From contig CADDYT010000075.1 in NCBI GenBank assembly GCA_902810755.1, forward strand, positions 1 through 28,736: 28,736 nt of DNA. The letters are read 5' to 3'. Source of the stretch: Chloroflexota bacterium (lineage in GTDB: Bacteria > Chloroflexota > Ktedonobacteria > Ktedonobacterales > Ktedonobacteraceae). The position numbers and the translations under genes were made by a program. This document shows, in pieces, positions 155 through 28,686 of this stretch; position 1 is the first letter of the stretch, and each line of letters starts with the position of its first letter. Under the pieces are notes generated by a model. It had not been told where the DNA came from, searched no databases, and worked only from the letters and a program-made list of their open reading frames with translations.

Positions 155-3100
155 TTACTCCTTCATTAACCTCCGCAAAACGGTCTGCAGGATGCCGCCG
201 TTTTCGTAGTAGGTGACGTCGATGGGGCTGTCGAGGCGAGCGATGGTGGTGAAAGTGAAGGTTGAGCCGTCTTCGCGGGTCGCCTGCACCGTCACTTCCT
301 GGCGCGGCTTGAGGCCCTGTTCGATACCGAGGATGTTATAGGTCTCGCGACCTGTGAGGCCCAGAGATTCTTTGTTCTCGCCCGGCTTGAACTGGAGCGG
401 CAGGATGCCCATGCCGACGAGGTTGCTGCGATGAATGCGCTCAAAGCTTTCGGCGATGACGGCGCGCACGCCCAGCAGCAGGGGTCCCTTCGCCGCCCAG
501 TCGCGCGAACTGCCAGAGCCGTACTCTTTGCCCGCAATGACGAGCAGCGGCACGCCCTCCTGCTGGTAGCGCATGGAGGCATCGTAGATCGTCGTCTCCT
601 CCCCGTCGGGCAGGTGAACGGTGTAGTAGCCTTCCTTGCCGCCGACAAGACGGTTGCGCAGACGGATGTTGCCAAAGGTGCCGCGTACCATCACCTCGTG
701 GTTGCCGCGCCGCGCGCCATAGGTATTGAAGTCTCGGCGCTCCACACCATGCTCGATCAGGTACTTCCCGGCGGGGCTGCTAGGCCCGAAATTGCCGGCG
801 GGAGAGATGTGGTCGGTGGTGATCGAGTCATCCAGCATGGCTAAGACGCGCGCCCCACGAATGTCTTTGATCGGCTCCGGCTCAACGGGCATATTCTGGA
901 AGAAGGGCGGCTCCTGAATATAGGTTGAGTCGGGGTTCCAGTCGAAGAGCGTGCCGCTGGAATTGGAGAGGGAACGCCAGTGTTCGTCGCCCTCGAAGAC
1001 GTTGGCATAGTCCCGCTCGAAGAGTTCGGGCGAGATGGCCGAAGCCACCACGTCGCGTACCTCTTCCGGCGAGGGCCAGATGTCGCGCAGGTAGACCGGC
1101 TCGCCATTGATATCGGTGCCGACCGGTTCCGTCGTCAGGTCGATATCGACGGTACCGGCCAGGGCGTAGGCGACGACGAGCGGGGGCGAGGCCAGGAAGC
1201 TGGCGCGCACCTGCGGGTGAATGCGCCCCTCAAAGTTGCGGTTGCCGCTCAGCACCGCCGCGACTACCAGATCGTTCTCCTGCACAGCATCGGCCACCGG
1301 CTGCGGCAGGGGGCCGCTATTGCCGATGCAATTATGCACTGCTACCGTGCCAGCCACGAAGGCGTGCAGATCGTCTACTGCCAGATCGAATACCGCTCGT
1401 TTGCCAGCCGGACGCCGTTCCACCACCTGAAGCGCGAGCGTGGGCAACGTAAGTGATTCCTTCTCGATGCAGTATCGTTTCGCCGTCTCCCTATCCTCAC
1501 GCGAGGACAACAGCGCGAACCACTCGCGCGCGCCGATCTGATTGAACAGTTCGACAGGCGATGGAAAGTCGCAGGCATCTCTATGCAACGGCTGGAACTT
1601 GCGCGTTGTAGCCTGCGGGAGCCGCGAAAAGCGGTCGTGTCCTTCCAGCAGGGCGTAATGTGGGAAGACAACCGGCTCGCGTTCCAGTAGCTCTACCGCC
1701 GCTTTTTTGCGTGCATGGGAGAACGAGAGTGCGTAGTCTGCCTGATGGAGTTCTTCCAGGCGGGCCGACATCCAGAGGCGCTGGCGGTGAATCTGGTCCA
1801 CCAGCCGCCAGTAGACCGCCGCCGCGCTGGCTCGCAGGGCCTTGTCCATGCAATAGCGGAAGCCGACACGCTCCACGAACGAGAGGCCATCTGGAAGCTC
1901 CAGGCGCACCTCCACACGCGGCATGCCATCCTGTGCTGCCGGATACGTGGAAGCTGAGCGGCGCGTGGGGTATTCGTAGACGCTGGTTCCATCGGTCTTC
2001 ACGCCACAACGCGCCAGCAGGCGGGTCACATCGTACATAAGCTGCTTGAGAGCTTCCACATGCTCCGCTATGGTACTCTGGGAATAGGCTGGCGGTTCAA
2101 GCGTTGCATCACCATCACCTTTGCCCCGGCGATGCAGGGTAGGCGCGTGTCCGTTGGCTCCGAACAGGCCGCCCAGGAACTCGCGTACTACCGCAATGGG
2201 GCAATATTCATCCAGCACGAAAGCTGGAAGCATTGGCGCCTGCTGAATGCGCCGCCCGGTGCGCACGCCGGGCAACGTGCTGATGGCGTCTGTAAGCGAC
2301 TTCGGTAGCACAATCGTCCACTTGCGCTCATCGTAGCGCGTTGCCGCCGGGCGAACGCCGGTCAGCAGTTCAATGTCGTCGAGAACGGCTTCGCGGTCAA
2401 GGGCCTGTCCAATGTGCATGCGGCCCTGCCCGGAGAGGCTGATCGAGCCGTCGCTGAGCAGATGGCCAAGCAAGCGAGCAAAGGCCAATGTGCGCTGGCG
2501 CTTACGCGCTGTCTCCATTGTGAACGTCAGTTTGCCAGCTTGCAGCGTGTACCCGGCTTCGTCGTCCCCAGGCTCGTCCAGCGGGGCCTCAAGGCCAACC
2601 ACAACGCGATCCTGGCCGGGTACAAGCTGGTCGGCGCGCACCCAGCGACCATCGGTGCAGAGCAACTTATGGTCAGGGGTACAGACCAGCGCGCGCCCGT
2701 CTTGCAGGGTGAGCGAGACACATTCGCGCTCACCCTGAACCATCATTTCGGTCTGCCTTGCCCTGCCTAACTTGCCATCTGCGGTAGGGGCGAGTAGCGA
2801 GGCTCCGCCGAGGCCCGGCAGTTGCTCGATGGGCCGCGCGGTGCCGTTGGCAAGCAGTACCGGCGTGCCTTCCGAAATGCAGGTGGTACAACCATAACCC
2901 ACCAGATGGAAGCGCAGGGCATCGAGATAGGGCAGCAGGTCGGCGTTGCGCAGGTAGTCGATGACGGCGCGCGAGCCGGGGGCAAGGCTGGTTTTGACGG
3001 TTGGCTTGACGCTGAGGCCGCGTTCGACGGCGTGCTTTGCCAGCAGACCGGCGGCAACCATCACCGAGGGGTTGGAGGTGTTGGTGCAACTGGTGATGGC

Positions 3101-4543
3101 GGCGATGGCGACCGAGCCGTCGGAAATGTGCGTCTCCACGTCGCCCATCCTGACCACGACATCTTTGACATGCCCGTTATGCCCGTCGCGTTTGCCCTCG
3201 CTGGCAAGCGTCGCCAGGTCTTTCGCCTCGTTTTCGGCCTGAGCAACCGGATCGGGGTCAGGCCTGCCGCCCTCGGTGCCGAGCCGAATCAAGGGCTTCT
3301 CGGTGGTCAGGTTCTGCTCGTCTTCAAGGAAGCGGTCAGGATAGTTCTTGCGGAAGACGCGGCCAAGTTCCTGCATGGGAACGCGATCCTGCGGGCGGCG
3401 CGGCCCGGCGAGGCTGGGTTCAATCGTGCCGAGGTCGAGTTCGAGCAGGTCGTCAAATTGCGGTTCCGGGGCCTCATCGGTGCGGAAAAGGCCCTGAGCT
3501 TTTGTGTAGCGTTCGACGAGATCGACCCGCTTTTGATCTCGCCCGGTGCCGCGCAGGTAGCGCAGCGTCTCCTCGTCGACGGGGAAAAGGGTGGCGGTCG
3601 CGCCGAATTCGGGCGACATGTTGGCAATGGTGGCGCGGTCAGCCAGAGGAAGCTGGCTGAGGCCGGGGCCGGTGAACTCGACGAACTTGCCGACAACGCC
3701 GCGTTTGCGCAGCATCTGCGTCACCGTCAGCACGAGGTCGGTGGCCGTTGAGCCGCCGGGCAGCGAGCCGGTGAGGCGCACGCCGATGACTTCGGGGGTG
3801 AGCAGGTAGAGCGGTTGGCCGAGCAGGACGGCCTCGGCCTCAATGCCGCCGACGCCCCAGCCGAGGACGCCAAGACCGTTAATCATCGTGGTGTGCGAGT
3901 CGGTGCCGACGAGCGTGTCGGGGAAGGCGATAGTCTGCCCATCCTCTTCCTTTGTCATCACGACAGAAGCCAGATATTCCAGGTTCACCTGGTGAACGAT
4001 GCCGGTGCCGGGTGGGACAACGCGGAAGTTGCTGAACGCCTGCTGCGCCCAGCGCAACAGCGCGTAGCGTTCGGAGTTGCGCTCGTATTCGCGTTCCACA
4101 TTGCGCGCAAAGGCCAGTGACGAGCCGAACATATCCACCTGCACAGAGTGGTCGATCACCAGATCGGCAGGCACCAGCGGATTGACCTTTTCCGGGTTGC
4201 CGCCCGCGCGGGCCATCGCCGACCGCATGGCGGCGAGGTCGGCCACAGCAGGAACACCGGTGAAGTCTTGCAGCAGGACGCGGGCCGGAAAGAAGGGATA
4301 TTCAGCCTCGACCTGCCCGGCCTGTCCCGGTCGCCAGTTCGCCAGCGCCAGCACCTCATCTTCCGTTACCAGCGTACCATCGAGGTGGCGCAGAGCATTC
4401 TCTAAGATAATCTTGACCGTGTAGGGCAGGCGATCCAGTTGCACGCCGCGTTTCGCCAGCGCGGCTAAATGAAAGTAGGTGACGGAGCCATACGCGCTCT
4501 CCAGCGTCGCACGAGCGCCGAACACATCATTGTGAGTCGTCAT
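155..4543 (-). CDS. acnA: Aconitate hydratase (AcnA type) interrupted by an intein
   Basis: Aconitase isomerises citrate to isocitrate in the TCA cycle using a [4Fe-4S] cluster. The precursor is 1462 residues, and removing the intein (residues 555-1071) leaves 945, near normal for AcnA/IRP1. Hallmarks seen include DSHTTMINGLGVLGWGVGG, SCTNTSNPSVM with Cys486, GYGCTT with Cys552, then after splicing CIGNSGPLP with its Cys becoming residue 555, and the C-terminal swivel domain (DDSITTDHISPAGN, GKEYGSGSSRDWAAKGP). Cluster cysteines at 486/552/555 have the same 66- and 3-residue spacing I recall for IRP1 (437/503/506). The ATG at 4543 has GAGG just upstream. It is last in a minus-strand row after an HPr-kinase-like gene but has its own promoter candidate. 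Activity should depend on protein splicing. Confidence 0.97.
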   Translation of the reverse strand: MTTHNDVFGARATLESAYGSVTYFHLAALAKRGVQLDRLPYTVKIILENALRHLDGTLVTEDEVLALANWRPGQAGQVEAEYPFFPARVLLQDFTGVPAVADLAAMRSAMARAGGNPEKVNPLVPADLVIDHSVQVDMFGSSLAFARNVEREYERNSERYALLRWAQQAFSNFRVVPPGTGIVHQVNLEYLASVVMTKEEDGQTIAFPDTLVGTDSHTTMINGLGVLGWGVGGIEAEAVLLGQPLYLLTPEVIGVRLTGSLPGGSTATDLVLTVTQMLRKRGVVGKFVEFTGPGLSQLPLADRATIANMSPEFGATATLFPVDEETLRYLRGTGRDQKRVDLVERYTKAQGLFRTDEAPEPQFDDLLELDLGTIEPSLAGPRRPQDRVPMQELGRVFRKNYPDRFLEDEQNLTTEKPLIRLGTEGGRPDPDPVAQAENEAKDLATLASEGKRDGHNGHVKDVVVRMGDVETHISDGSVAIAAITSCTNTSNPSVMVAAGLLAKHAVERGLSVKPTVKTSLAPGSRAVIDYLRNADLLPYLDALRFHLVGYGCTTCISEGTPVLLANGTARPIEQLPGLGGASLLAPTADGKLGRARQTEMMVQGERECVSLTLQDGRALVCTPDHKLLCTDGRWVRADQLVPGQDRVVVGLEAPLDEPGDDEAGYTLQAGKLTFTMETARKRQRTLAFARLLGHLLSDGSISLSGQGRMHIGQALDREAVLDDIELLTGVRPAATRYDERKWTIVLPKSLTDAISTLPGVRTGRRIQQAPMLPAFVLDEYCPIAVVREFLGGLFGANGHAPTLHRRGKGDGDATLEPPAYSQSTIAEHVEALKQLMYDVTRLLARCGVKTDGTSVYEYPTRRSASTYPAAQDGMPRVEVRLELPDGLSFVERVGFRYCMDKALRASAAAVYWRLVDQIHRQRLWMSARLEELHQADYALSFSHARKKAAVELLEREPVVFPHYALLEGHDRFSRLPQATTRKFQPLHRDACDFPSPVELFNQIGAREWFALLSSREDRETAKRYCIEKESLTLPTLALQVVERRPAGKRAVFDLAVDDLHAFVAGTVAVHNCIGNSGPLPQPVADAVQENDLVVAAVLSGNRNFEGRIHPQVRASFLASPPLVVAYALAGTVDIDLTTEPVGTDINGEPVYLRDIWPSPEEVRDVVASAISPELFERDYANVFEGDEHWRSLSNSSGTLFDWNPDSTYIQEPPFFQNMPVEPEPIKDIRGARVLAMLDDSITTDHISPAGNFGPSSPAGKYLIEHGVERRDFNTYGARRGNHEVMVRGTFGNIRLRNRLVGGKEGYYTVHLPDGEETTIYDASMRYQQEGVPLLVIAGKEYGSGSSRDWAAKGPLLLGVRAVIAESFERIHRSNLVGMGILPLQFKPGENKESLGLTGRETYNILGIEQGLKPRQEVTVQATREDGSTFTFTTIARLDSPIDVTYYENGGILQTVLRRLMKE
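1331..2881 (-). other. In-frame intein (517 aa) with LAGLIDADG endonuclease domain
   Basis: The insert begins with Cys1 in the block-A motif CISEGTPVLLANGT. It has block B TPDH with His at intein position 71, two dodecapeptide endonuclease motifs (LLGHLLSDG, Asp144; LGGLFGANG, Asn243), block F VFDLAVDDLHAFVAGTV, and ends in His-Asn before a Cys+1 extein residue. The frame is open throughout. This is the standard class-1 splicing layout: Cys1 N-S shift, Cys+1 transesterification, Asn cyclisation. The insertion site is between the second Thr and the last Cys of the aconitase GCTTC motif. In the second endonuclease motif the usual acidic residue is Asn, so the homing activity may be lost while splicing is kept. 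The boundaries follow from the fit of the flanking aconitase sequence and should be exact. Confidence 0.95.
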
Positions 4544-4671: not shown

Positions 4672-5841
4672 TTATGCGCCCCGGCGGTGGCGTTCCAGCA
4701 GAGTGCGCACCTGCAAGGCGTTGAGGCGGATATCGGGCGTGAGCCAGAGCTGGTAGGATGGAGCCTGAGCGGCCAGGTCGCCGAAGATGTTGAACATGTA
4801 ATCGGCTTCGCCCTCTTTCGCATTCTGCTGAGAAATAAACTCCTGCATCAGGGTGCTGACAGCCTGTACGGGCGTGATTGGCTCGGCGCGGAATTCGACG
4901 GCGCGCCGCTTCGCGCTGATGAAGAGCAGAACACGGGCCGGACACGAACTGACAAACTGCCCCTGGAAATAGCGTTGCACATCGACGAAAGCCTTCTGTC
5001 GGCTATCTTTCGCCACCGTCTCCATAAAATCATAATGCTTTAAGAGGTCGAAAGAACCTTCACGCACGCCGATATCTTCGGGGAAGGCATAAATTTTCAC
5101 CACGCCGTCATCCTTCGCCAGAAAGAGAACATCATCGGCCAGCAGGTGCATGCCTTCCTTCATGCAGGAAAGCACCAGCGTGCTTTTGCCGCTGCCCGGC
5201 GAGCCAATCAGTAAGGCCCCGGCCTGCCCATCAAGGGCCACTGCCCCCGCGTGGATGATTTCGTAGCCATCGATGCCAAACATGGCCCCCAGCACCATGT
5301 AGAAGACGAAACGCATGAGAAACCAGGAGGTCGTGATCTCCGGCCGCTCAACAAAAATGGTGGCATGCAGATCGACCTTATCCATGACCGAGCAGATGCG
5401 CCCGCACACGCCCGTGTAGGGCTGGTATTCGCGAAAGCGCAGCGAGCCGCGCTTCCAGCGGGCGCGCAGTGGGCCATCCACGCCGGTAATTTCTTCCCAT
5501 GCAATCTCCGTCGGCTTTGCCTCGGCAGGCGCGGGCGGGAAGGTTTCATCGGGCCGCGTGGCAAAGAGATAGCAGGTCAGGGCAACGGGGCGGTACAACC
5601 GCTCGCCTGCCTGCCAGAGCAAATCAACAGGAATATCAACCGGTAACTGATCTGGCTGATCGTAGGTATATTCGGCCAGCAATTCGGCGTAATAGAGGAA
5701 CTGGCGCACCTGTTGCGCGAATTCCTGGCGGTTGGTTACGATACGCACCATCCGATGGTGCAGCAGATACCACTGCTCAAAAAGTGGAGAAGTTACATGG
5801 TCAAGATACGGCTGGGCGCGCTGGCGTTCAGCTGTGTACAT
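4672..5841 (-). CDS. HPr-kinase-like P-loop protein
   Basis: This 389-aa cytosolic protein has a P-loop GSPGSGKST at residues 213-221 and, 15 residues on, LLADDVLFL with Asp236-Asp237. This is the arrangement of the HPr kinase/phosphorylase C-terminal domain and its many paralogues. The N-terminal 200 residues do not resemble the HprK N-domain in an obvious way. No HPr or PTS gene is present, so the substrate is unknown and a role in sugar repression should not be assumed. The start ATG has AGAGGA nine bases upstream. It follows the winged-helix gene by 58 bp on the same strand and precedes acnA by 128 bp, so the first two may be co-transcribed. Family-level assignment only. Confidence 0.7.
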   Translation of the reverse strand: MYTAERQRAQPYLDHVTSPLFEQWYLLHHRMVRIVTNRQEFAQQVRQFLYYAELLAEYTYDQPDQLPVDIPVDLLWQAGERLYRPVALTCYLFATRPDETFPPAPAEAKPTEIAWEEITGVDGPLRARWKRGSLRFREYQPYTGVCGRICSVMDKVDLHATIFVERPEITTSWFLMRFVFYMVLGAMFGIDGYEIIHAGAVALDGQAGALLIGSPGSGKSTLVLSCMKEGMHLLADDVLFLAKDDGVVKIYAFPEDIGVREGSFDLLKHYDFMETVAKDSRQKAFVDVQRYFQGQFVSSCPARVLLFISAKRRAVEFRAEPITPVQAVSTLMQEFISQQNAKEGEADYMFNIFGDLAAQAPSYQLWLTPDIRLNALQVRTLLERHRRGA

Positions 5842-17039: not shown

Positions 17040-17077
17040 CTTGAGAGGGAAGAATCAAACACTTTCTCTCAAGGAGG
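17040..17077 (+). promoter_or_regulatory. Hairpin over the transposase ribosome site
   Basis: CTTGAGAG (17040-17047) pairs perfectly with CTCTCAAG (17066-17073), and in RNA three more pairs (two G-U, one A-U) extend the stem inward. The right arm covers the first three bases of the AAGGAGG ribosome site (17071-17077) before the ATG at 17083. Transcripts entering from outside would carry the stem, which could damp transposase translation, a known strategy of insertion sequences. Confidence 0.45.
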
Positions 17078-17082
17078 TACAT

Positions 17083-19008
17083 ATGACCAGTATCGCTGAC
17101 AGTTCGGTAAAAATCCAGACGACTTCCGAGTCCAATCCTTCACCCCCTTCGTGGTTTGGCGAAGTGGCGCTTCTCATCAGCTCTCTTCGCCAGCACGATG
17201 TTCTCAGCAAGATCAGTGAAAGGGTGCGCTTTGCCCGACGGCGCTTCGGACACTACGAGGTGATCGACTTTCTTGCCGTCCTTTTCGGCTATGCCATCAG
17301 CGGAGAACGCACCCTGGAGGAGTTCTACCAGCACCTCCAGCCCTTTGCGGGTCCGTTCATGGCCTTGTTTGAGCGCGATCAACTGCCTTCCCGCTCGGCG
17401 CTCTCCCGTTTTTTAACGGCGTTGACATCCGAACCGGTCGAAGCCCTGCGCACCCTCTTTCTTGATGATCTGCTCAGCCGCCCTCTCTCGTCTGCCTCCA
17501 ATGAGAAGCCAACGGGAGGTGTCGTGGATCGAGCAGAAACTACCTGGGTGGTCTTTGACATCGATGGCAGGCGTCAAGCCGCTCGCCAACGTGCCTGACC
17601 CCAGAGCGAAGAGCTGCCCCCGGCCTTTCGCCGATTGGATGAAGTCTGCGCTCCAGGCTATCGGGGGCGCAAGCGCGGACAAGTCGTGCGTACCCGCACG
17701 GTCATCAGCCAGGCTCACAATTTCCAGTGGCTCGGCTCCTTTGGCAACCGAGGCAACGGGCTCTACCGAGAGGAATTGTGCCAGGCTCTCGCCGCCATCG
17801 ACCGCTATCTTGCAGTGTACCAGCTCCCGAAAGAGCGTGCTCTGCTCCGGCTTGATGGACAATATGGCACTGGAGCTGTCCTCTCCGACCTGGCTGGCTT
17901 CGCCTTTGTAACAAGAGGCAGAGAGTACACGGTCCTTGATCACCCGCTCGTCCAGGCGCGTCTGCATCTTCCCCCCGATCACATCCAGCAGCGCCCGCAA
18001 AGCCGGGTCGCCCGCAGTCTCTATGACTGTCCAGAGGTGCCGGTGGGGCCAGAGGGGGTACGCTACCGCGTGGGGGTGGCGACTCATCCAGAGAGCCTCA
18101 AGAAGAGCCCGGTTGGTGTCACGCGTGGGGGTGTCGTCCATGAACTGTTTTTCACCGCGCTGCCGCAACAGGGCTTCACCGCTTGCGATGTGGTCGAACT
18201 GTATCTGCATCGTGGTGCCTTTGAACCTCTACTTTCTGACGAAGATCAGGAGATCGACCCGGATCGGTGGTGTAGTCTCAGCGCTTGCGGTCAAGAGGCA
18301 TGGTGTATCATCAGCCAATGGGTGTGCAACCTGCGTTTGGAGGTGGGACATGAGGTAGAGCCAACTCCTGTACGCACAACCGAGTTTGCGCCCGCCATCG
18401 CGGAGCCTGGCGAGCAGGCGACAGCCTCATCCGTTCCCGCAACGGGCTATGGTCCGCCTACCGCGGCTACCTCCTGGAAAACCGGGCGCTTTTCTGGCCA
18501 GGACTTTCCTCTCCAGCCTGACGGGACGCTACGCTGTCCAGCAGGGCAGTCGCTGTCTGCCCAGGAGCGGCGCAGAGAAGCCGATGGCAGCCTGCGTGTG
18601 GTGTATGCCGCCAGCATTCGCAGTTGCCGCCCCTGTCCGCTGCGTGAGCAGTGTCAATGGAATGGCAGCGCTACAGCGAAGCCGCGCCAGGTTAGTGTCC
18701 TGCTGCATCCGCTCCGCCTGGGTCCCGCACCGCTGCTCTGGCGAGATTGGAGTCGCAGAGAGCATCGGCGTGCCTGCATGCAGCTCGTGCGACATCAGCG
18801 CCTCGAGGTGGGCCTGTCGCCACCCGTCGCCGCGAGGCCTTGCACCGCTGATGGGATCCTCTCCCGTGCGCAGCGAGCGCACTCGCGTCTCTCGTGGGTG
18901 CAGCGGCTGGCTCGCAATGCGCGTCCTCCAACTGCTGGGCACGTCACGATCAAGCTCTTTGGCATCCCGGCATCCTTTGCTGCCTCGCTCGGGTTAGAGA
19001 CGGCTTAA
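17083..19008 (+). pseudogene. DDE-type transposase interrupted by an in-frame TGA
   Basis: The ATG at 17083 follows AAGGAGG. Reading runs 171 codons to a TGA at 17596-17598. The same frame then stays open to 19008, so one substitution splits a gene of about 641 codons. The N-terminal part has a helical domain (FGHYEVIDFLAVLFGYAISG). Candidate catalytic acids are Asp in WVVFDIDG, Asp in LLRLDGQYG, and a later Glu near QEAWCIISQW. The C-terminal CPAGQSL, CRPCPLREQC segment is a zinc-ribbon-like Cys cluster as in IS1182-type transposases. The IS family was not settled and no terminal inverted repeats were found. The neighbouring AT-rich DNA and broken gene fit a mobile-element landing zone. Confidence 0.8.
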
Positions 19009-23974: not shown

Positions 23975-25330
23975 TTATGCAATCTGGTATAATTCTACCT
24001 GTTGTTGGGCATTTACCGCCAGCAGCAACAACGTATCTTCATAGGGAAGCAGTCCTACTGGTAAGCTCCAGGTCAACACGCCACCGTACTCTTCTTGTGA
24101 AAAGAGGGTCGTTTCCTTGAGCATAATGGGTGGCGAGACTTCAGCAAGTGTAGCAGTGTTACGCTCAGAGAGACGGATAAAATCCTGGCATTGTTCAATC
24201 AACCAGAAGCTAGCTTCGCGCCCTGTTTTTCCCGACCTTGCTACGACATAGGCACGCTGGATATCTCCTTCAAGTGATTTCAGCGCATGAAATCTTGTCT
24301 CATGCTGCGGGACCCAATTCCAAAGTCTCCATTGTCCTTCTTTCACGTCCACCCCCACTATCGCGGTCTCAGAGACCGTCAGATGCAGCTGGGGATACAC
24401 TTGCTCACGACAGATCTGCAACAGCTCCCCTCCAGTACTCACCCATAATAAGTGACTTAGTTCTCCTGCTTTCTCCTGTTCCTCCTCACTCCCACCAATA
24501 CTGCCGATTTGTTGAGCAGCGATCTTTTTGGCTGCTACCCCAACAATACAGGTAGTTTGTCCGGGGAGCATCGGCCCATCGATCATGATCGCGGTCGCCC
24601 GTAATTCCATCAGTTCATTCACATCATAACTCGCTCTGGCAGGTAAGGCAGCAGGCAAATCCTCTTTCCATAACAAAGAGGCCAGATCTGGTGTATATCC
24701 AGCCAGAGAGAAGGCCAGTTGTCTGAGCCTCTCTGGCTTCTCTTGTAATACTCTCTCTTGTAAGGTCAGCAGCACGACCACCCTTCCATTCGCATGAGCC
24801 AGAATGCCATCGGTATAATCAAAAGCATCATTGAGAACCTGGACTCTGCGTTCTTTTGGAAACACTCGTTGCACAGTAAGCACCGGCACATCATTGTAAT
24901 AGGGACGCTTCATATACAGGATGATGTATGTCTGGCCATCACTGGCAAAATGATAAATGGGACCAAGAGAGTAAGCCACAGCAACTTTTTCAAGCAGGAA
25001 GGCATCAGTCAGGACTGGTAGACTATCATGGATGTTGACGGTGCGGAACAGTAATGCATCCGAAACAGTAATTTGGGCAAGACCCCAATTGGCCTCTGAA
25101 GTATCATACGTCAGGGCCAGTTCCTGAACAGGTTCAGTTGGAGTAAAGATCACTTCGTCAAGCATCTGTTTGAGAGAAAGATCGAAGAGGGCAAAAGAGA
25201 CCTTCTGCCATCCATCCTGAATGTATGCAATGGCTAACATACTACCTCGCTCCCCCCCTGGAGAGATGACGCACGGAGAAAAGGGTCCTGGTACAAAGCC
25301 TTGAAATGTTTGAAGCAGGCGAATATCCAT
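23975..25330 (-). CDS. Unknown protein B, paralogue of the first operon gene (operon gene 4)
   Basis: This 451-aa soluble protein has no signal peptide. It is strand-rich with recurrent short hydrophobic strands and Gly/Asp turns, which suggests a beta-propeller-like or beta-barrel fold (inference). It aligns along its length with the 469-aa gene at 27277-28686: LALTYDTSEANWGLAQI vs LRLTYDLSKQQWLLARI, VGVDVKEGQWRLWNW vs VGVDFFDARRRLWNW, and ASFWLIEQ with TLAEVSPPIML vs SSFWLLEE with TLAELAPAMIL. The ATG at 25330 has GGAG eight bases upstream and is preferred over one 60 bp further up, which overlaps the WD40 gene. It follows that gene by 31 bp. No family recognised. Confidence 0.75.
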   Translation of the reverse strand: MDIRLLQTFQGFVPGPFSPCVISPGGERGSMLAIAYIQDGWQKVSFALFDLSLKQMLDEVIFTPTEPVQELALTYDTSEANWGLAQITVSDALLFRTVNIHDSLPVLTDAFLLEKVAVAYSLGPIYHFASDGQTYIILYMKRPYYNDVPVLTVQRVFPKERRVQVLNDAFDYTDGILAHANGRVVVLLTLQERVLQEKPERLRQLAFSLAGYTPDLASLLWKEDLPAALPARASYDVNELMELRATAIMIDGPMLPGQTTCIVGVAAKKIAAQQIGSIGGSEEEQEKAGELSHLLWVSTGGELLQICREQVYPQLHLTVSETAIVGVDVKEGQWRLWNWVPQHETRFHALKSLEGDIQRAYVVARSGKTGREASFWLIEQCQDFIRLSERNTATLAEVSPPIMLKETTLFSQEEYGGVLTWSLPVGLLPYEDTLLLLAVNAQQQVELYQIA

Positions 25331-25361
25331 CAGTATTGCTCCAGGAGAGGAGAAACCTACG

Positions 25362-26270
25362 TTAAGATTTTGCCAGCAGTGGCTCGACATTCCACACGAC
25401 TACCGTTTTATTGTGACCCCCAAAAGCAATGCGGGTTCCGTCGGGCGACCAGGACATGGCATTGATCTTGTACATCTGAGAGGGTGAACGATAGACACAC
25501 TTATCGGAATGGGCGACCCAGATTTCTACCATACCATGTGTCTGGCAGAGAAAGTACTGCTCATCAGGTGACCAGACCAGACCCGTCTCGTCTGAATAAT
25601 AGTAGAGCGCCAGGGTTTTGCCCGTTGTCACCTCCCACAGGCAGGCATGACTGCGCGCCCCTCCTGAGAGAATGCGCTTGCCATCGGCCATCCACCTGAC
25701 ACTATGCACGCTGCTGAGATGCTCCCGATAGCTCAAAAGGCGCTCTCCTGCCTCTGCATGCCACACCTGCACGCTCTTATCCGGGATGCCTCCACCACTG
25801 GCCAGATACCTTCCATCTGGTGACCAGGCAACGGCACATACCACACCTTCATGTCCGCGATAGGTGAGCAAGTCTTCTCCTGAAAAAGCGTCCCAGACCT
25901 GCACTGTTCGATCCCAGGAACCAGAAGCTATGCGCCGCCCATGTGGCGACCAAGCCAGAGCGCGACGAATCCAGGCACTGTGTCCTCGGTAGGCGGTCTG
26001 AGTTTTCCCGCTCTGAGCATCCCAGACCTGTACAGTCGTGTCCAAACTTGCCGAAGCTATCGACGACCCATCTGGGGAGCAAGCCACCGCAGTGACTCCC
26101 AGGCTATGACCGTTATACATCAGCACGTTTTTACCGCTATCGCTCTCCCAGAGCTGCACCGTTCCATCGGCACTGCCTGAAACGATATGGCGACCGTCAG
26201 GCAGCCAGCTCAACGTACTGACCCACTCACGATGGCCGCGATAGATCGTGAGAACTTCCGGTTGTTGCAT
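25362..26270 (-). CDS. WD40-repeat protein, one seven-blade propeller (operon gene 3)
   Basis: This 302-aa soluble protein consists of seven WD40 repeats and nothing else. The blades can be followed by their ends: VQLWE, VQVWDA, VQVWDA, VQVWHA, ACLWEV, VEIWVA, VVVWNV. Most have GH or EH before the first strand and SPDG in the turn. Seven blades close one ring, so it is probably a scaffold for partner proteins rather than an enzyme. It has no signal peptide or attached kinase or protease domain, unlike many bacterial WD40 proteins. It lies 53 bp after the HEAT gene and 31 bp before unknown protein B, and those neighbours are its likely partners (inference). Confidence 0.92.
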   Translation of the reverse strand: MQQPEVLTIYRGHREWVSTLSWLPDGRHIVSGSADGTVQLWESDSGKNVLMYNGHSLGVTAVACSPDGSSIASASLDTTVQVWDAQSGKTQTAYRGHSAWIRRALAWSPHGRRIASGSWDRTVQVWDAFSGEDLLTYRGHEGVVCAVAWSPDGRYLASGGGIPDKSVQVWHAEAGERLLSYREHLSSVHSVRWMADGKRILSGGARSHACLWEVTTGKTLALYYYSDETGLVWSPDEQYFLCQTHGMVEIWVAHSDKCVYRSPSQMYKINAMSWSPDGTRIAFGGHNKTVVVWNVEPLLAKS

Positions 26271-27276: not shown

Positions 27277-28686
27277 CTATTCTATTTGATAAAGCACTAA
27301 TTGCTCATCTTTGTCCACTCCAAGGGTCAACAACGTGTTGCGATACGCTACGGTTAATGATGGCATATCCCGTTTGAGGTCTCTCCAACCCGTTTGCTTT
27401 GAGAGCAGTTTGGTATCGTTCAGTATCATCGCTGGAGCAAGTTCAGCCAGTGTGATGGCATCGCGTTTGGAAACCTTTACGGAATCAGGATATTCCTCAA
27501 GCAGCCAGAAGGAGCTTTCCTGATGCTCCCCCTCGGGCTGCCCTGCCACTACTGAGACACGAATGATCTCTGGGTCTAGCTCGACAACGGTATGAAGGAC
27601 TGTTTCTTTCATCAGAGGAAACCAGTTCCAGAGTCTCCTGCGTGCATCGAAGAAATCGACGCCCACAACTGTCCCGGCGATTTGACACAGACGCACGTGG
27701 AGTCCTATCTGACTCTGGCAAACCTGTACTATTTCTCCTCTCGTGTCAATACAGCAAAAGAGCTGCACGTTTTTACGAATACGCTCTTCATCTTCTAACG
27801 TGTAGCCGTGCGCCTGGTAATCGAACGTATCTAAGAGAACCATTGCAACGACAAATGTTTGTCGTCCACTCTCTGAAAGGGTAGGGCCTGCAACAGCATC
27901 AGCCGCCACTCGCAGCCACTCAAAATCAGTTTCCGGGTTTGCCCTGTCCCCGACAGGCAGGCCAATAGGGGGGGAATAGCTCCATAGGGCTTTTGCTTCG
28001 TCTCTTTTCCATCCCATCATGAGCATGCGCCACTGGGCTGTCGCTCCAACAAATCCTTCTTCCTGTTCTGCCAATTCCCCATATTCTGGACGACATGCCA
28101 GCAAGAGGCTATGCTCGTTTGAAAGGCAACCCAGGGCTTTATCAGCGTCGGCGATTGCTTCACAAACAAGCTGTTCTTCAACTCCCTGTTCCCTCACTCG
28201 TGTCAGATAGACAGTCGGACTCTGAAGATCATCCCTTTCTGGTTTGAGATAAAGCATACTGGCCACAGTATTAGCGCCATCTACTAGAAGCAATGGTCCA
28301 ATATCCGTCATATTATCGGCTGCTTCGTCAATAAGGAGCGAAGAACCGGAAAGAAAACGATTGGTGGCTGGAATGAAAGAGAGAACGAGACGAGAAGGGA
28401 CTCTGTTCTGGAAGCCTTCAATCCGGGCAAGCAGCCACTGCTGTTTCGACAGATCATACGTCAGTCGAAGAGCTTCTAGTGCTGAACAGGGGCATGGAAA
28501 AGAGGTACGATTGAGCATTGTGTCATGATCCACGTCCATTTCTAACAGAGAAAACGAAGCTGCCTGATCGCCGTTTTCACGATTATTTGCCCAGCAAATG
28601 CCGAGTCGGCTCGATTGTAGATAACCAGATAATGGCAATGACCAATCCCCTCGTGGGATTTGCAAGAGTTTTCGTTTTTGCATCAT
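27277..28686 (-). CDS. Unknown protein A, paralogue of operon gene 4 (operon gene 1)
   Basis: This 469-aa soluble, strand-rich protein has no signal peptide. It shares with the gene at 23975-25330 the conserved points LTYD, VGVD followed by RLWNW, SSFWL, TLAE and a C-terminal Leu-Tyr-Gln-Ile end, so the two arose by duplication, yet they differ over much of the length. No catalytic motif stands out. AAGGAG lies seven bases before the first of two start ATGs, the strongest ribosome site in the operon, and the gene opens the transcription unit. The promoter would lie in the last 50 bases of the window, where no hexamers could be assigned. Family not recognised. Confidence 0.75.
   Translation of the reverse strand: MMQKRKLLQIPRGDWSLPLSGYLQSSRLGICWANNRENGDQAASFSLLEMDVDHDTMLNRTSFPCPCSALEALRLTYDLSKQQWLLARIEGFQNRVPSRLVLSFIPATNRFLSGSSLLIDEAADNMTDIGPLLLVDGANTVASMLYLKPERDDLQSPTVYLTRVREQGVEEQLVCEAIADADKALGCLSNEHSLLLACRPEYGELAEQEEGFVGATAQWRMLMMGWKRDEAKALWSYSPPIGLPVGDRANPETDFEWLRVAADAVAGPTLSESGRQTFVVAMVLLDTFDYQAHGYTLEDEERIRKNVQLFCCIDTRGEIVQVCQSQIGLHVRLCQIAGTVVGVDFFDARRRLWNWFPLMKETVLHTVVELDPEIIRVSVVAGQPEGEHQESSFWLLEEYPDSVKVSKRDAITLAELAPAMILNDTKLLSKQTGWRDLKRDMPSLTVAYRNTLLTLGVDKDEQLVLYQIE

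Follow-up and report, generated by a model that had tools for sequence, protein, structure and literature searches.

The aconitase gene acnA in a 28,736-nucleotide stretch of DNA from a bacterium of the Ktedonobacteraceae (Chloroflexota; assembly GCA_902810755.1, contig CADDYT010000075.1; the whole stretch is called the window below) is interrupted by a 517-amino-acid insert placed directly in front of a cysteine of the [4Fe-4S] cluster motif. Taken as a whole, the evidence makes it very probable that the insert is a cis-splicing intein of the class 1 type with a LAGLIDADG endonuclease domain, that it splices in acnA and that its family spreads by homing. The host, the insertion site and the spread over both prokaryotic domains appear to be new, whereas the kind of element is already known.

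The intein in acnA

All features of the gene lie on the reverse strand. Open reading frame analysis and matches to domain and AcnA models assigned positions 155–4543 to acnA, encoding an aconitase precursor of 1462 amino acids whose reading frame is open across all 1462 codons. The N-extein (554 amino acids, 2882–4543, ending VGYGCTT) matches the cytosolic aconitase/IRP1 chains 3sn2 and 2b3x, and the C-extein (391 amino acids plus stop, 155–1330) starts with CIGNSGPL. Together the exteins make up the aconitase domains (Pfam PF00330, E = 3.4e-159; PF00694, E = 5.8e-44), and the NCBIfam AcnA model NF006757 was matched with 1372 bits. The intein itself (precursor residues 555–1071) occupies positions 1331–2881, exactly the coordinates and length given in a preliminary description made from the sequence alone, and reading of the junctions (VGYGCTT/CISEGTPV on the N side and AGTVAVHN/CIGNSGPL on the C side) bore out its placing of the insertion between GCTT and the cysteine of the cluster motif (GCTT/CISEGT and HN/CIGNSGP). 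Taking the insert out yields a 945-amino-acid aconitase with only three cysteines, C486, C552 and C555, which we take to be the [4Fe-4S] cluster ligands of AcnA; the aconitase domains and these three cysteines in the spliced form identify the protein as AcnA. The codon of the first, Cys486 (3086–3088), belongs to the motif SCTNTSN and that of the second, Cys552 (2888–2890), lies at position −3 of the intein. Both motifs align with cytosolic aconitase 3sn2, which carries serine at both positions; presumably these serines mark cluster-ligand positions and the 3sn2 chain is a ligand mutant.

A protein search with precursor residues 545–1085 scored 7,995 candidates, 850 of them at E ≤ 1e-10, and the 120 listed ones, including the window protein, were examined; the insert was exactly 517 amino acids long in 98 of the 105 full-length listed relatives with an insert of 500–560 amino acids. 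When genome contigs were scanned with two peptide patterns and a profile built from six inteins, at least 28 loci were found, and others may have been missed. A check for inteins at the same AcnA site had been proposed at the outset; the insert starts at the identical acnA codon in all 28 loci, and CIGNSG is rejoined in all 23 that reach the intein end, the remaining five either running out of contig (L010, L023, L026 and L028) or shifting frame (L013). As these loci come from other genomes and share the codon, the insert is neither a chance occurrence nor an assembly artefact of one contig. The unbroken sequence GCT[TS]CIGNSGP was found in 30 of 30 intein-free AcnA (L029–L058) from the class of genome G003 (titled Ktedonobacterales), so the element is an in-frame insert within one host protein that is absent from relatives.

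Class 1 inteins are in-frame host inserts with Cys or Ser at position 1, a TxxH sequence in block B, a terminal His-Asn and Cys, Ser or Thr at +1; they adopt the HINT fold and excise themselves with ligation of the exteins. All these splicing residues are present in the window, namely Cys1 (2879–2881; the nucleophile, standing in the third-ligand position of the precursor and conserved in 28/28 loci), T68 and H71 of the block B motif TPDH (intein residues 68–71, 2669–2680; both conserved in 28/28 loci), H516-N517 and Cys+1 (1328–1330; a cysteine in all 23 loci, of the 28, whose sequence extends that far). Cys+1, the second splicing nucleophile, would become the third ligand, residue 555, after splicing, as the preliminary description had put it. 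In one locus (L015:6001-7539) Ser replaces His as the penultimate intein residue (VSN/C).

The Pfam intein model gave 35.9 bits with the insert alone, barely above its cut-off of 35.8, and 31.8 bits, below the cut-off, with the whole precursor. Among solved structures, the Mtu RecA intein is closest in sequence (E = 3e-8; 34–35% identity over the aligned part). The predicted fold of the insert agrees with solved inteins and comprises a HINT domain, composed of an N-terminal part of about intein residues 1–121 (2519–2881; matched by the Mtu RecA intein, with its limit set from predicted strands) and a C-terminal part ending VAVHN (1331–1438), as well as an intervening endonuclease region followed by a mostly helical part (about intein residues 122–481, 1439–2518). 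By sequence and predicted fold the insert is thus an intein, and the protein searches, which might have shown it to be something else, came out intein-like.

Since the catalytic residues are intact, the usual chemistry of inteins would have Cys1 attack the Thr554-Cys1 bond after translation, the N-extein pass to Cys+1 and Asn517 cyclise, joining the exteins as GCTT-CIGNSGP, upon which Cys+1 would act as third [4Fe-4S] ligand. We propose that the splicing residues have stayed intact because aconitase needs them.

The ligand cysteine and possible redox trapping

Before splicing, intein Cys1 occupies the place of the third ligand and the precursor still reads GCTTC, with Cys552 at −3 from Cys1. 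The initial statement that no normal cluster can form in the unspliced precursor is therefore not quite right, because Cys1 replaces the ligand and the C486/C552/C555 pattern is formally kept. A redox trap was reportedly described by Callahan in 2011 for the P. abyssi MoaA intein. According to reviews, Cys1 can be held in a disulfide by a cysteine at −3, both when this is engineered in Ssp DnaE and naturally in the oxygen-labile enzyme MoaA of P. abyssi (PMC3922620; PMC10663303). The same combination of Cys at −3 and Cys1 is present in the window, and by analogy the Cys552/Cys1 pair has the known redox-trap geometry, the resemblance being one of geometry only. As in MoaA, the host is oxygen-labile and the N-extein offers a cysteine able to pair with Cys1; the two cases differ in that MoaA is an archaeal host and aconitase an enzyme of the tricarboxylic acid (TCA) cycle, for which the trap is deduced from geometry alone.

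It is conceivable, although on balance we doubt it, that a Cys552-Cys1 disulfide, or a metal or cluster fragment shared by the two residues, keeps the precursor from splicing under oxidising conditions; the oxygen-labile aconitase would then mature only in a reducing, iron-replete cell, and the intein would partly be kept for this reason. Such gating would add to the splicing and homing explanation rather than exclude it. In its favour, Cys(−3)-Thr-x-Cys1 is found in 28/28 loci, the natural trap of P. abyssi MoaA provides a precedent, and addition of 12 N-extein residues raised the score of the match to 3nzm, the DnaE intein in its trapped form, from 18.6 to 22.1 bits, query residue 10 (Cys−3) aligning with 3nzm residue 7, three ahead of the chain's Cys1 at 10; the predicted model likewise aligns with 3nzm from chain residue −5 onward. 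Cys552, however, is a cluster ligand that the 30 intein-free AcnA read from the Ktedonobacteria class also have at this position, and it thus shows no selection for a switch, and the existence of close relatives without the intein indicates that it is dispensable in related lineages. Somewhat more doubtful still is the broader proposition that a mobile intein found across bacteria and archaea has made aconitase maturation responsive to redox state or iron, in that Cys552 and Cys1 would mimic the ligand pair of GCTTC and a disulfide or metal would retain the TCA enzyme in precursor form until conditions in the cell are sufficiently reducing to build and keep the [4Fe-4S] cluster.

Distribution, mobility and state of the endonuclease

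In the class of G003, AcnA was found at E ≤ 1e-100 in 45 of 47 genomes and the intein in 11 of these 45, a count in which the intein calls of G026, G027 and G030 come from incomplete contigs and the fragment of G033 stops before the site. The intein was present in 16 of 400 genomes of a sample of the G003 phylum, in 7 of 47 in the phylum of G010 (one partial, G958, and one broken, G967) and in 1 of 274 in the class of G012; for genomes added in the wider samples of the G003 and G010 phyla, assignment of the host relied on frame length. Of 250 genomes in the G008 class, 46 have AcnA (E ≤ 1e-100), and 2 have the interrupted motif within a frame of >1400 amino acids, the second of these (G156) being counted from the pattern and frame length.

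Going by record titles, which can err, the carriers include Ktedonobacteria and other Chloroflexi, Eisenbacteria, Proteobacteria, Polyangiaceae (a metagenome-assembled genome, MAG) and Nitrososphaerota. Two loci titled Proteobacteria (L007 and L022) come from genomes, G006 and G017, that belong to the G003 phylum, and G017 also to the G003 class. The archaeal origin of L012 is secure, its acnA being followed by an aminotransferase gene and an archaeal rpoB (TIGR03670, 907.6 bits; cut-off 811), and the neighbours of L014 resemble those of L012 by eye; L008, L016 and L023 are archaeal by title.

In an 84-row extein tree built with a quick method, from which L010, L023, L026 and L028 (incomplete) and L013 (broken frame) were left out, intein presence requires 11 changes, and the archaeal carriers L012 and L014 are placed among intein-free aconitases of the G008 class. 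The intein tree, built from 34 rows with a careful method, places L008, L012, L014 and L016, archaea by title, in one clade (100/99), and uniting them on the extein tree cost 572 log units (AU, approximately unbiased, test p = 3e-5), so that the archaeal inteins are one clade sitting on two distant aconitase lineages. Among close pairs, P0001 and P0002 differ by 0.7% in the extein and 5.6% in the intein, and P0003 and P0004 by 7.2% and 1.9%, respectively. A patchy distribution and tree conflict at a single fixed site point to mobility, and homing combined with fast intein change is the simplest reading of the disagreement between extein and intein. The family endonuclease would cleave intein-free acnA alleles within the cluster motif, and repair would copy the intein into them; this would keep the site of insertion constant and transfer the intein from one lineage to another, including into archaea.

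Purely vertical inheritance of an ancestral intein with many losses and no horizontal homing would agree with the intein clades that follow several broad groups and with the correlation between extein and intein identity (Spearman 0.53 for pairs among 22 sequences), both of which also count against constant shuffling. We nevertheless regard it as highly improbable, since the single archaeal intein clade spans two distant aconitase lineages, the P0003/P0004 and P0001/P0002 divergences disagree in opposite directions, and the endonuclease aspartates are mostly retained.

Two further ideas on mobility and retention were abandoned. The codons TGC and ATC after the insertion site are commoner in intein-bearing genes (Fisher p = 0.003 and 0.0008), which could have been a homing-target signal, but the same genes use TGC and ATC at 0.72 and 0.76 elsewhere, whereas genes without the intein use them at 0.59 and 0.45; much of the bias is thus accounted for by base composition. 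An unusually conserved, domesticated intein was suggested by mean identities to the window of 0.827 for the intein and 0.821 for the extein (105 full-length listed matches besides the query); this was dropped because the matches had been ranked by intein similarity and the intein changes faster within lineages (L017/L019: extein 88%, intein 68%).

The first LAGLIDADG motif of the window intein, LLGHLLSDGS (2444–2473), retains its aspartate (codon 2450–2452), and the second, FLGGLFGANG (2150–2179), has asparagine at the position of the catalytic aspartate (AAC, 2153–2155, where a one-base assembly error is possible). With the insert alone, the Pfam model LAGLIDADG_3 gave 21.5 bits, just below its cut-off of 22.5. 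Both aspartates are retained in 111 of the 120 listed database relatives, among them P0003, P0004, P0006, P0007 and P0008, and in 25 of the 28 loci, L028 stopping short of motif 2. The window copy thus has a catalytic acidic residue in one of the two motifs instead of both, and going by these residues it is classed as an intein with a LAGLIDADG-related domain and not as one with an active endonuclease.

Several observations weigh against the explanation by splicing and homing as a whole. Motif 2 of the window carries the D→N change, and P0002 and P0005, only 0.7% away in the extein, have asparagine in motif 1. In the intein tree there is a single clade each for the proteobacterial, Eisenbacterial and archaeal inteins, so that most transfers seem confined to broad groups, and no relative of the intein was found in any of 239 viral contig stretches matching one of two peptide patterns. 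Finally, the best Foldseek matches of the predicted fold, TliVMA, PI-SceI and PI-PfuI, fit loosely over the whole chain (TM 0.26–0.29 to the query, rmsd 17–21 Å), and consequently only the splicing domain is firmly matched.

Asparagine in place of the catalytic aspartate generally inactivates LAGLIDADG enzymes. The endonuclease of the window is therefore probably impaired, and would probably be losing its activity in this lineage; with asparagine in motif 2 of the window and in motif 1 of P0002 and P0005, active homing in the lineage is doubtful. The changes in different motifs among near relatives look like independent decay, and the pattern resembles the late decay phase of the homing cycle (PMC3403396). 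A Polyangiaceae copy (L025:6001-7329, 443 amino acids) has both endonuclease motifs degenerate (LHGGGV and GAYGEG) together with an ordinary VHN/C end and is perhaps a step towards a mini-intein. In L013:711-2600 the acnA frame breaks near the C-terminal end of the intein and is different where it continues in the C-extein, representing either a decayed copy or a mixed assembly. The short matches P0111 and P0091, considered as possible split genes or pseudogenes, have tails that are seemingly frame-shifted, near the intein end and behind the intein.

A splicing-dead or decaying insertion, which would leave acnA as a pseudogene or as two fragments, is the least credible alternative of all: the changed motif 2 of the window and the broken frame of L013 would fit it, but every splicing residue checked is intact in the window, the 1462-codon frame is open, its aconitase parts match AcnA strongly, and the intein-bearing gene is the sole PF00330 match in 4 of 19 carrier genomes (G004, G008, G009 and G017). 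Most of these records are MAGs that may be incomplete, and the other 15 genomes have further untyped PF00330 matches; at least some carriers thus probably depend on splicing for their aconitase, a conclusion weakened by genome incompleteness.

Neighbouring genes, known inteins and implications

Upstream of acnA, a 389-amino-acid open reading frame (4672–5841, reverse strand) has a P-loop-like GSPGSGKSTL sequence and no Pfam match at 1e-5; we take it to be reminiscent of HPr-kinase-like proteins. Two adjacent forward frames (17041–17598 and 17635–19008), likewise with no Pfam match at 1e-5, resemble by eye a broken transposase gene. A WD40-repeat protein is encoded at 25362–26270 (reverse strand), flanked by two reverse-strand frames of 471 and 469 amino acids (23975–25390 and 27277–28686) that resemble each other by eye.

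TliVMA, PI-SceI and PI-PfuI have hosts other than aconitase. They share with the window intein a splicing core with inserted endonuclease and differ from it in their low identity of 12–15%, as well as in the loose whole-chain fit. The NCBIfam models for intein-containing RtcB (NF038162) and the Rv2578c radical SAM protein (NF038136) matched weakly over the intein (39.9 and 36.5 bits), far under their cut-offs of 1150 and 700. The mycobacterial RecA and SufB inteins have the HINT core in common with it; their hosts are different and the similarity is confined to the splicing core. SufB (Rv1461) belongs to iron-sulfur cluster assembly and its intein is reported to be stress-sensitive (PMC6034842). 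None of the NCBIfam matches listed (25 of 33) names an intein-containing aconitase, and no report of an aconitase intein was found in the accessible parts of the open-licence literature searched, although a report in print elsewhere is possible; this agrees with the initial remark that aconitase is not among the well-known hosts.

A central-carbon enzyme thus joins the intein hosts, with one insertion site common to distant phyla and to both prokaryotic domains. Nearly identical members in which either of the two catalytic aspartates is changed offer a natural series for endonuclease decay. One residue would serve both as second splicing nucleophile and as iron-sulfur ligand, and an N-extein cysteine stands where the known redox trap needs it. 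The old question whether inteins are regulators or merely selfish may therefore be testable in an enzyme that depends on an iron-sulfur cluster.
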